DNA of 64,000 nucleotides from Zhaonella formicivorans (GTDB lineage Bacteria > Bacillota > DUOV01 > Zhaonellaceae), in contig NZ_CP085524.1 of assembly GCF_004353525.1 (NCBI RefSeq), positions 2,018,142 through 2,082,141 of the forward strand. The letters are read 5' to 3'. Each line of letters opens with the position of its first letter. Position 1 is the first letter of the stretch. Under the pieces are notes generated by a model. It searched no databases, was not told where the DNA came from, and saw only the letters and a list, made by a program, of their open reading frames with translations. Both the position numbers and the translations under genes were made by a program. This document shows positions 56,836 through 60,913 of this stretch, one piece after another.

Positions 56836-57690
56836 ACCTATCTTTTAAGAGATATTTATGGCGTTGATGTTTCAGCAGGCTTAATCAGCCGGGTTACCGA
56901 CAAAATTATGCCGCTTGTTGCAGATTGGCAAGCCCGGCCTTTAGAAAGAATCTATGCTATAGTCTACCTTGACGCCATTCATTTCAAGGTTCGCAAGGAT
57001 AACCGCATTGTCAATAAAGCAGCCTACAGTGTCCTGGGCATTAGCTTAAGCGGCCACAAAGATGTCCTTGGAATCTGGGTTGGCGAAACGGAAAGCGCCA
57101 GTTTCTGGCTTGGCGTCTGCAACGACCTGAAAGCCAGAGGGGTAGAGGACATTTTAATTGTCGCCAAAGACGGTTTAACAGGCTTTTCTGAAGCCATAAA
57201 CACCGTTTTCCCTCAAACAAACATTCAGTTGTGTGTAATCCACCAGATTCGCAACTCCTTAAAATACGTGTCATATAAGGATCAGAAGCTGCTAATGGCT
57301 GACCTGAAGAAAGTATACCAGGCCCTGACCCTGGAAGAAGCAGAGTATAACTTTGAAGAGTTTAGAGAAAAATGGGGCAAAAAATATCCCTTGGTAATTC
57401 GATCCTGGGAAACTCACTGGGATGAACTGACCACCTATTTCAGATATCCGGTAGAGATTCGCCGAATCATTTATACAACCAATCTCATTGAGGGGTATCA
57501 CAGGCAGCTTAGAAAAGTAACCAAGACAAAAACAGCTTATCCCACCGATGATGCCTTAAGAAAAATTGTTTATCTGTCCACTATGGATATCAGTAAGAAA
57601 TGGACCATGCCAATAAAAGACTGGAACAATGTTATGGCCCAATTTATCTTGTATTATGGTGACCGGTTAACTGAAAAAATGGCTATTTGA
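56836..57690 (+). pseudogene. IS256-family transposase, N-terminally truncated
   Basis: In-frame similarity starts at YLLRDIYGVDVSAGLISRVTDKI and runs to the natural end. The DDE region is largely present (YLDAIHFKVRKDNRIVNKAAY, VAKDGLTGF, CVIHQIRNSLKYVSYKD, the YTTNLIEGYHRQLRKVTK block). About 130 N-terminal residues (DNA-binding part) are absent and stops precede it, so it cannot be functional. No inverted repeats are found. Confidence 0.85.
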
Positions 57691-58253: not shown

Positions 58254-59351
58254 TTAATAGGCATTGATACCACGCTCCTCCATCTGAGCACGTAAAGCAA
58301 ATATCTTAGCAATTCCTTCCTCAGTCAAATGCCTTTTAACTCTAATAAGGTTAGCAATTTCCTTATAGATGGCAAAATCTTTCCGTTTTTTAGCCCTCAA
58401 AGGATAACGATCAAAGAACGGAATGATCCTATTAATATTATCTTTAAAGCTTTGCACTGAATAGACATAGGCCTTTTCAGCTTTGTTGTAATATATATTC
58501 CCACAGCCAAAATAATTTTTTAGAGTAGTTAACAGTTTCAAGTTAATTGCAGCTAATGTAACAGTGAAATGAAGTTTAACCCTAATTCCTGCCTTATAGT
58601 TAGAATCACGTGAAATTATTACCGAAAAGCAACCTTCACCATCTACAAGCCCTGAAACATAATGGCCACTATAAATATGTGGCTTGCCCTGAACTACCAC
58701 ATTTACTTGACTCATTCCCTCGCCAATATCCAGTTTCTTCCTTGATTTATTGCCGCCATTATTCATACTCGTTCTTTTTTGGTAAATCATTCTAGCGATA
58801 TCAGCAGAATCACTATTCAAATATAAAGCTAGACATTCCTTGAATATCTCATAATCCAGCAACTTAGATGACTTTAATTTAAACTTATCAAAGAATGGAA
58901 TAACAACTTCATTCAACTCCGCTAAACTCTGCACTATAAAACGGCAGGCATCCTGAGCATTGTCTTCCTTTCGCTTTACGTAATGGATCCTGCCACATAG
59001 TAGCGCATTTTGAATCAACTTTAAAATTTCGTCATCAGCCTTGGTTAATTCAAGTTTAAAAGTAAATCTTACTTGAGTTCTATAGCTTTGGTTTTCCTTA
59101 GAAGCAAATGAAATAATAAAAGAACCTTCTCCATCAACAAGACCTGAAATATAATGCCCAAAATCATCGCTGATTTCTAAAGTTTTTCCTTGAGAACTTA
59201 ATAAATTTTTCTTCCAAACTTTATTGCGGATCATGTTGCCAAAGGCAGCACTACATTTTCGGGAACAAAAACGCCCATTTCCTCGATTAAGTTCCTTTTT
59301 TATAACTAAGAATTCTTTACCACAATTTTGACAAGTCGTTAATACTTGCAA
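58254..59351 (-). CDS. LAGLIDADG homing endonuclease with N-terminal zinc-finger-like motif
   Basis: A 365-residue double-motif LAGLIDADG protein: ISGLVDGEGSFII at about 68-80 and VSGLVDGEGCFSVI at about 232-245, each starting a similar ~140-residue half, so it should act as a monomer. The N-terminus has CQNCG...FCSRKC (residues 7-33), a four-cysteine finger. TTG start at 59351, with GAGGTGA seven bases upstream. It lies 115 bp beyond the 3' end of the intron-bearing tmRNA gene, same strand, and is outside the intron. Confidence 0.9.
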   Translation of the reverse strand: MQVLTTCQNCGKEFLVIKKELNRGNGRFCSRKCSAAFGNMIRNKVWKKNLLSSQGKTLEISDDFGHYISGLVDGEGSFIISFASKENQSYRTQVRFTFKLELTKADDEILKLIQNALLCGRIHYVKRKEDNAQDACRFIVQSLAELNEVVIPFFDKFKLKSSKLLDYEIFKECLALYLNSDSADIARMIYQKRTSMNNGGNKSRKKLDIGEGMSQVNVVVQGKPHIYSGHYVSGLVDGEGCFSVIISRDSNYKAGIRVKLHFTVTLAAINLKLLTTLKNYFGCGNIYYNKAEKAYVYSVQSFKDNINRIIPFFDRYPLRAKKRKDFAIYKEIANLIRVKRHLTEEGIAKIFALRAQMEERGINAY

Positions 59352-59430
59352 CTAGAATCACCTCAACCCGTCCAAAACGATCATATGTTCTATTTCTACG
59401 CTTTTGAGTATTTCCCCTGCAACAAAACAT

Positions 59431-59454
59431 AAAAACACCCAATAATTGGGTGTT
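59431..59454 (-). terminator. tmRNA terminator
   Basis: Minus-strand stem AACACCCA/TGGGTGTT with six-base loop ATTATT's neighbours, then TTTTTATG; 12 nt after the tmRNA CCA end. Confidence 0.85.
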
Positions 59455-59465
59455 ATAAATAAATT

Positions 59466-60063
59466 TGGTGGAGGCGAGGAGACACGTGATCCGGCACTTT
59501 CGTACCGGCGCTGACTATATCTTGGACTTGCAGTGCAAGCCCCCTGGCGTGTTATGCGTATTTAACGCATCCTAGTACTGCCACTAGCGTGGCAGCCTAT
59601 GAGTCGATACGCGGCTGTTGGGTTACCCCACATACCACTCGGTATTAGCACCGCCATTACGCGCTGAGCCTTCACCGATAAAGCCAGGTTTTCACCTGCA
59701 CGTCACCGTGCAGGGCGACCTATATTCTTGATCGAACTCCTGTCCGAAGGAGCACCCACAAGAGCTTCTACCAGGATAGTTCCTGTTCTAGGATTCGCCG
59801 CCGGAGCTCCCAGGAACAGGATCTCGCTTAGGCTAGCCCGCTTAAGTTTCCCCTAAATCCAGCAGGCGGTCGATTCAGGGTATCCCGCTAGTCGTCCCCC
59901 TATCCTACACCGCGGGAGCAGTAGGTAGGAGGTTAACTGCAATTAAGCAGCTAAAGCGTAATTTTCGTTTGCGTTTAATTTAAGGTCCACCGTATTACGG
60001 GCTGATGGAACCCCGCCTGGCTACTCCTGCCAATACATCCCCCGTCGAAACCAGTACGCCCCC
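59466..60063 (-). ncRNA. ssrA: tmRNA (ssrA), interrupted by a group I intron
   Basis: Transfer-messenger RNA for trans-translation. The 5' end GGGGGCG (60063-60057) pairs with CGCCTCC (59478-59472 region) to form a 7-bp acceptor, ending CCACCA at 59466. TGGTTTCGACGGGGG follows the 5' end. The tag frame at 59972-59943 encodes ANENYALAA and stops. The mature length without the intron is 350 nt, normal. The CCA is encoded. A TATAAT at 60153-60148 is a likely -10, implying a 5' leader removed by RNase P. smpB is just upstream. Confidence 0.95.
59483..59730 (-). other. Group I intron in the tmRNA T-loop
   Basis: The T-arm AGGAGTTCGAT (exon) is interrupted; the partner TCTCCTCGCC resumes 248 nt later. 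Joining them gives the perfect stem-loop AGGAG-TTCGATT-CTCCT. The exon ends in T and the insertion ends in G, as group I splicing requires (U before the 5' site, terminal omega-G). Near its 3' end it contains CCAAGATATAGTC, the hallmark S/P7 sequence AAGAUAUAGUC, with a partner ATCGACTCATAG upstream. It encodes no protein. Confidence 0.88.
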
Positions 60064-60256: not shown

Positions 60257-60727
60257 TCACTCACGATTTTTATCTCTAATCGCTCTGGCAATTTCCCTGT
60301 TGGCATCCCGGGCGGCCATGTCTTCCCTTTTATCGTACAGCTTTTTACCTCTGGCAAGAGCCAGTTCCAGCTTTGCTTTGCCCCGCGGGTTAAAGTACAC
60401 TTTGAGCGGCACCAGGGTCAAACCTTTTTCTCTGGTTTTACCGATCAGCCTTCTGATTTCGCTTTTGTGCAGCAAAAGCTTTCTGCTCCTCTTGGGATCG
60501 TGATTGAAGCGATTACCCTGCTCATAAGGGCTGATGTGCATGTTATAGAGAAAAACTTCGTTGTTTTCTACCCGCGCAAAACTGTCCTGCAAGTTGGCTC
60601 TTCCTGCCCGGAGGGACTTTACTTCCGTCCCGGTTAAAGCTATTCCGGCTTCATAAGTTTCCTCTATGAAATAATCATGCCGGGCTTTGCGGTTTTCAGT
60701 TACCACCTTGATCTTTTTTTCCGCCAT
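60257..60727 (-). CDS. smpB: SsrA-binding protein SmpB
   Basis: A 156-residue Smp[75 protein letters not shown] and a basic C-terminal tail [13 protein letters not shown]. It binds tmRNA and replaces codon-anticodon contacts on stalled ribosomes. ATG at 60727 with GGAGGC upstream; the longer frame has no support. ssrA follows by about 190 bp. Confidence 0.95.
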
Positions 60728-60913
60728 CGAGACGCCTCCATTAAAAAACAAACCCTTTGATTTGGACTCTTCCAAAGCGCAGGGTGATGTGTCAATACTC
60801 GTATAGCTTTTTTATTATACCAGAGTCAAAGCAAAAGTCAAGAGCTAGTATCGCCCCTATACGATCTCCCGGATAACCATAATTTATTTGCACGGCAAAT
60901 GCAAGCGCGCTGC

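Follow-up and report, generated by a model that had tools for sequence, protein, structure and literature searches.

The window, by which we mean the whole 64-kb stretch of DNA analysed, contains a tmRNA (ssrA) gene on the minus strand with smpB upstream of it, and the tmRNA gene is divided in its T-loop by a 248-nt insert (Table 1). The 5' end of the tmRNA was set from its 7-bp acceptor stem (GGGGGCG/CGCCTCC), and the encoded tag reads ANENYALAA. Exon 2 pairs with the T-stem and acceptor portions of exon 1 and agrees with intronless alleles; when the exons are joined, a T-stem (AGGAG/CTCCT) and the 7-bp acceptor stem are formed, bearing out the proposal of an earlier sequence-only reading that excision restores the T-arm. 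ARAGORN called no gene in the window, presumably because of the intron. The terminator 3' of the gene, a hairpin with a U-run, is seen also in the third match of the RNA model. Beyond this terminator, 115 bp past the tmRNA, starts a LAGLIDADG gene; it is what is new at this locus, and the sequence-only reading had overlooked it. A Mutator-type transposase (window 56908-57690, plus strand) lies 560 bp beyond this gene; it matches profile positions 147-377 of 379, and its N-terminal part is absent.

Table 1. Features of the interrupted tmRNA locus, in window coordinates
Feature	Position	Strand	Basis
smpB (tmRNA cofactor), host context upstream of the tmRNA	60257..60775	-	PF01668 8e-66
tmRNA exon 1, acceptor stem to T-loop GTTCGAT	59731..60063	-	RF00023 137 bits, E 7e-55
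Group I intron, 248 nt, IA-like, T-loop position 7	59483..59730	-	RF00028 E 1.2e-5 and covariation
Intron P1	59731-59734/59716-59719	-	hand-drawn structure
Intron P3	59683-59688/59543-59548	-	hand-drawn structure
Intron P7	59602-59607/59512-59516	-	hand-drawn structure
tmRNA exon 2 TCTCCTCGCCTCCACCA: T-loop end, T-stem, acceptor, CCA	59466..59482	-	sequence
Intrinsic terminator 3' of tmRNA (AACACCC..GGGTGTTTTTA)	59430..59454	-	sequence
Free-standing LAGLIDADG homing endonuclease gene (predicted), 365 aa	58254..59351	-	PF00961 3e-49, two domains; intact ORF
LAGLIDADG motif 1, catalytic Glu, residues 67-78	59118..59153	-	sequence
LAGLIDADG motif 2, catalytic Glu, residues 231-242	58626..58661	-	sequence

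A group I intron in the tmRNA T-loop

The insert follows the U (-1) of GTTCGAT and lies between T-loop bases 59731 and 59482, its last base being the omega-G at 59483, with the core AAGATATAGTC at about 59522-59512. The sequence-only reading had given the same extent to the nucleotide and had pointed to the U before the 5' site, the terminal G and the core, all of which we found. Natural intronless alleles (G097, G501) read GGGGTTCGATTCCCC at the insertion point, so the intron boundary is exact and the restored T-arm coincides with the empty site; GTTCGAT precedes the intron in nearly all relatives in our junction table. The intron contains no coding ORF (longest open frame, 52 codons).

We drew the intron structure by hand, and all of its elements are present in the window intron: P1, P2, P3, P4, P5, P5a, P6, P6a, a bulged P7, P7.1, P7.2, P8, P9.0 and P9. 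The P7.1 and P7.2 helices, which sit between P7 and P3, are marks of group I subgroup IA, and by these the window intron is IA-like. To the structure we applied a covariation test on an alignment of 12 relatives (78 base pairs, 500 shuffles). Among these relatives 94.7% of cells are paired, compared with 79.6% when shuffled, 46 of the 78 base pairs show compensatory changes on both sides, and 151 cells are changed on both sides against 50.5 in the shuffles; none of these measures was equalled by any shuffle (0/500). Sliding the structure along the alignment reduces pairing to 32-39%. Individual helices are 76-100% paired, with P3, P6 and P7 at 100%, and covariation is present in P3, P5, P6, P7 and P8. 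P1 (CGAU/GUCG, with a U.G at the splice site) is identical in 12/12 relatives. The core helices P3-P8 and the P3/P7 pseudoknot, conserved in group I introns, are present.

The sequence-only reading had named a covariance-model search as a check, and its outcome is divided: RF00028 spans the insert end to end (28.6 bits, E = 1.2e-5 with permissive filters; 30.6 bits in the genome search), at a score below the curated gathering cut-off of 50 bits. No tmRNA intron in the scanned loci, which include about 60 clear relatives, reaches 50 bits. Because its relatives also fall under it, the gathering score is no useful divide for this lineage; it is a detection threshold, not a defining trait of a group I intron. 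Two other readings of the insert were dropped, namely a permuted tmRNA (its model gives 24.8 bits, and the parts stand in the usual order) and another Rfam RNA. The insert is a group I intron of the tmRNA T-loop, and the original observation is confirmed. From the anatomy of the split gene, mature tmRNA would need splicing of the window intron, which we take to occur. The further idea of the sequence-only reading, that ribosome rescue may be coupled to self-splicing, gains no support from our results.

As an intron, the insert belongs to a known class. A recent survey reports 883 tmRNA introns in 21 phyla, mostly at T-loop position 7 (Nawrocki, Petrov and Williams 2025, PMC11915505), and we find a full tmRNA intron in 17/399 genomes of the phylum and in 47/196 sampled Clostridiaceae genomes; the earlier statement that such introns are rare, with reports from a few Clostridia, therefore no longer holds. 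The window intron resembles the published tmRNA group I introns, which occur mostly in Bacillota (Williams 2002; PMC11915505), in its T-loop position 7, -1 U and omega-G, and in being a short ORF-less ribozyme with P7.1. That survey sought endonuclease genes inside tmRNA introns only, where 36/883 carry one (4%, versus 54% of archaeal rRNA introns), and describes none outside, whereas the endonuclease gene here lies outside, past the tmRNA terminator (PMC11915505).

The adjacent LAGLIDADG gene and its relatives

The window gene has a TTG start codon preceded by its own Shine-Dalgarno sequence (AGGTGA). Its product, a predicted LAGLIDADG homing endonuclease (the gene hereafter HEG), carries an N-terminal Cys4-type, zinc-finger-like finger and the motifs GLVDGEGSF and GLVDGEGCF, DGEG being kept in both. 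The closest solved structure in the PDB is I-PanMI (E = 9e-50). With the I-OnuI-like single-chain enzymes (I-PanMI, I-OnuI, I-SmaMI) the protein shares two LAGLIDADG_1 domains with DGEG, and it differs from them in the extra N-terminal region and in being encoded outside any intron.

A search of 399 genomes of the phylum with PF00961 (LAGLIDADG_1) gave matches in six, of which five are true LAGLIDADG_1 loci. Each of the five has an intron-bearing tmRNA no more than about 250 bp away, and none lies elsewhere, so that the domain is present in 5/17 intron-bearing versus 0/382 intronless genomes (p = 7.5e-8; this and the p-value for Clostridiaceae below overstate the association, as species share ancestry and are not independent). 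The sixth match, in G090, lacks a LAGLIDADG motif and appears spurious, and LAGLIDADG_3 matches in intron genomes were set aside, being mostly elsewhere, in long frames or proteins of ~320 aa. The five loci comprise two versions of the gene: a less common two-motif version on the tmRNA strand, found only in the window genome and G211 (37% identical), and a one-motif version of about 135 aa that faces the tmRNA (G008, G223 and G341; 59% identical).

As a single-protein query of genome contigs the window HEG retrieved zero relatives, and only the one-motif alignment reached further. Scanning GTDB representatives with the one-motif family as query, we obtained 73 relatives, 52 of which adjoin an intron-bearing tmRNA, in hosts that include Clostridium, Tissierella, Lutispora, Neobacillus, Cytobacillus, Virgibacillus and MAGs labelled Proteobacteria. 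An ORF-less intron with a free-standing nuclease gene beside the interrupted gene is thus the arrangement in the window and in 52/73 relatives. Most of the 52 (45) are tail-to-tail with the tmRNA, with a median of 46 nt from stop codon to CCA end, and in six more genomes the HEG, oriented alike, shares a contig with the tmRNA at a distance of 8-55 kb. In Clostridium, inserts of 8-55 kb lie between the intron-bearing tmRNA and a displaced HEG (L264-L269; L118, L124, L131, L134, L140, L177), and several of them hold defence-like genes (type I restriction-modification, LmuA, PtuB-like HNH, SspE/GmrSD-like).

Among the 196 Clostridiaceae genomes an intact HEG is present in 22/47 that carry the intron and in 3/149 that lack it (p = 3e-13), and every HEG trace on a tmRNA contig is convergent and downstream (31/31). 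No trace was found in 15/47 intron-bearing Clostridiaceae, and the gene is also missing in the intron-bearing G001, G002 and G381; with so many such genomes, the HEG is not required to keep the intron. Two MAGs, one of Omnitrophota (L171) and one of Deltaproteobacteria (L172), appear to have the same HEG family inside the tmRNA intron, which suggests that internal and external positions interchange.

The insertion site and possible traces of mobility

The HEG is under purifying selection, with dN/dS of 0.03-0.19 in close pairs and a median of 0.26 over 65 pairs, and DGEG is present in 56/56 intact copies. We compared the state of the gene with that of the T-loop beside it. The intronless genomes with an intact, catalytically complete HEG have an altered T-loop (4 cases): TTCGACA in Clostridium manihotivorum and C. 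folliculivorans (L125, L132, where the retained gene has a dN/dS of 0.05), TGCAACT in L161 and TTCAATC in L176. At a canonical empty site the HEG is truncated in L178, and in G501 the ORF is open with DGEG changed to DSKG, the catalytic acid being lost. A simple rule, by which an intact HEG with an intronless tmRNA means an altered site, first failed at G501, whose HEG is without the catalytic Glu. Among the surveyed loci, where such cases are few, no intact and catalytically complete HEG lies beside a canonical empty T-loop; this pattern of site and catalysis would be the expected trace of a nuclease with the empty T-arm as its target.

Several loci bear on mobility. G211 carries the same intron twice, the second time in a degraded tmRNA copy 2 kb from the first; the two copies are identical over a run of 265 nt, which takes in the intron and, on either side, some 13-17 nt of exon. 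Farther out the exons have diverged, and the tract looks as though gene conversion had produced it. In two genomes of one genus (G341 and G381) the introns are nearly identical, and a clean HEG-bearing insertion/deletion lies just after the terminator. Distances of HEG, intron and exon all correlate tightly with one another (0.84-0.91), and between HEG and intron the partial correlation is low (r = 0.18, p = 0.02), so most of the history looks vertical; a tree-based proof of joint transfer of intron and HEG did not come out. A search for vectors gave no plasmid matches and phage matches of just 30-39% identity, and the viral contigs that carry distant HEG relatives contain no tmRNA intron.

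Other rearranged loci were noted. In G211, besides the complete intron-bearing tmRNA and its degraded copy, an intronless tmRNA 3'-end fragment, like a displaced attachment site, lies 8 kb beyond that copy (L037 4140-6950; L093 2850-2890). At L179 (700-1900, minus strand) an intact intronless tmRNA (TTCGACACC) has after it a displaced 3' fragment with the intron and a HEG with a frameshift; the locus looks as if an inserted island had taken the place of the tmRNA 3' end. G112 and G186 have degraded second copies of the tmRNA intron, situated 1-1.4 kb downstream of the gene (L038 6800-7100; L039 7540-7920).

Probable collaborative homing and its alternatives

Collaborative homing is, with good probability, the best explanation of the intron and its adjacent nuclease gene. 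The ORF-less IA-type ribozyme would be removed from the RNA by two transesterifications, restoring the T-arm, while its mobility at the DNA level would be supplied by the separate LAGLIDADG gene just past the tmRNA terminator. The enzyme would act on tmRNA genes that lack the intron, cutting them within the conserved T-arm sequence; the intron would break this target site and so protect its carrier, and its insertion would be harmless. Repair of the break from a carrier would then copy both intron and HEG, by co-conversion of roughly 50-150 bp of flank. The one-motif version would act as a homodimer, for which the T-arm, encoding a hairpin and hence an inverted repeat, would be a natural target, and the two-motif window enzyme as a monomer. 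The observed base of this explanation is the intron structure, the nuclease family, the recurrent adjacency, the fixed polarity, the purifying selection and the lack of a competent HEG at the canonical empty site among the surveyed loci; beyond these we infer cleavage specificity, co-conversion and splicing.

The nearest alternative, which we regard as unlikely, is that the HEG is an independent selfish gene homing to the tmRNA 3' flank and that the intron merely benefits. Such a gene could come and go beside an unchanged intron, as between G341 and G381, and could persist where the intron is missing, as in L125 and L132. The intron enrichment and the pattern of site and catalysis nevertheless imply that the intron protects its carrier, which is already the collaborative case, and the two explanations differ in degree. 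Less probable still, and very unlikely in our estimate, is a maturase, a LAGLIDADG protein that binds the intron RNA and aids splicing so that the genes stay together. LAGLIDADG proteins can turn into maturases, the window HEG weakly matches a bI3-type maturase structure (2ab5), and the gene beside the intron is under purifying selection; but it is missing in 12/17 intron-bearing genomes of the phylum besides the 15/47 Clostridiaceae, L125 and L132 keep it constrained without an intron, and the invariant catalytic DGEG is not needed by a maturase. The least credible explanation is coincidence at a hot spot for mobile DNA, with the nuclease gene a passenger unrelated to the intron, since, although islands often integrate at tmRNA genes (PMC11915505) and several Clostridium genomes carry defence genes and other inserts at the tmRNA 3' side, the polarity is fixed in 31/31, the gap is 40-50 nt at most loci, the intron enrichment is strong and no catalytically complete HEG occupies a canonical empty site.

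Collaborative homing was described for F-CphI and the psbA intron of cyanophage S-PM2, the type case (PMC6083498), and trans-acting homing endonucleases are known in T4-type phages, the known cases being phage systems (PMC6083498, PMC3984707). The tmRNA loci share with these an ORF-less group I intron and a free-standing HEG beside the interrupted gene. They differ in that the enzymes are LAGLIDADG proteins, F-CphI being a non-LAGLIDADG enzyme with an Endo VII motif, and in that the host is an RNA gene on bacterial chromosomes of many genera. Our literature coverage, which is incomplete, yielded no published report of collaborative homing for tmRNA.

The only other RF00028 match in the window genome (75 bits) splits a flagellin gene. 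This intron is about 320 nt long (L001 1501-1816), and a 370-aa free-standing LAGLIDADG_2 gene (PF03161, E = 2e-24; L001 285-1397, plus strand) is convergent just past the last flagellin exon. Group I introns in bacterial flagellin genes are known from Geobacillus, as cited in PMC3984707, and the present case is like them in its host gene, with the LAGLIDADG_2 gene right after it. Compared with the tmRNA locus, the intron, the LAGLIDADG subfamily and the protein-coding host are all different, and an intron with an external HEG may be a general arrangement for bacterial group I introns.

We lean towards the view that a large share of the 'HEG-less' tmRNA introns are mobile by means of outside LAGLIDADG genes, which would make this the first widespread cellular system of collaborative homing. 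At least two versions of the nuclease, the convergent one-motif and the co-directional two-motif form, would then have come to target the tRNA-like T-arm, and the flagellin intron would be a parallel case. This view offers an answer to a puzzle of the 2025 survey, the small number of tmRNA introns with a HEG despite their spread over 21 phyla, in that the nuclease may have been sought in the wrong place. If true, collaborative homing moves from phages to bacterial chromosomes, many natural pairs become available for studying the origin of composite mobile introns (as in L171 and L172, with a related gene inside the intron), and the LAGLIDADG family gains new enzymes whose target is highly conserved and can be predicted.

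In another genome (G248), four short matches on one contig (C1 175578, 237789, 267746 and 283473) cover model positions 240-279, the group I intron 3' core, and are perhaps copies of a repeated intron or an IStron.
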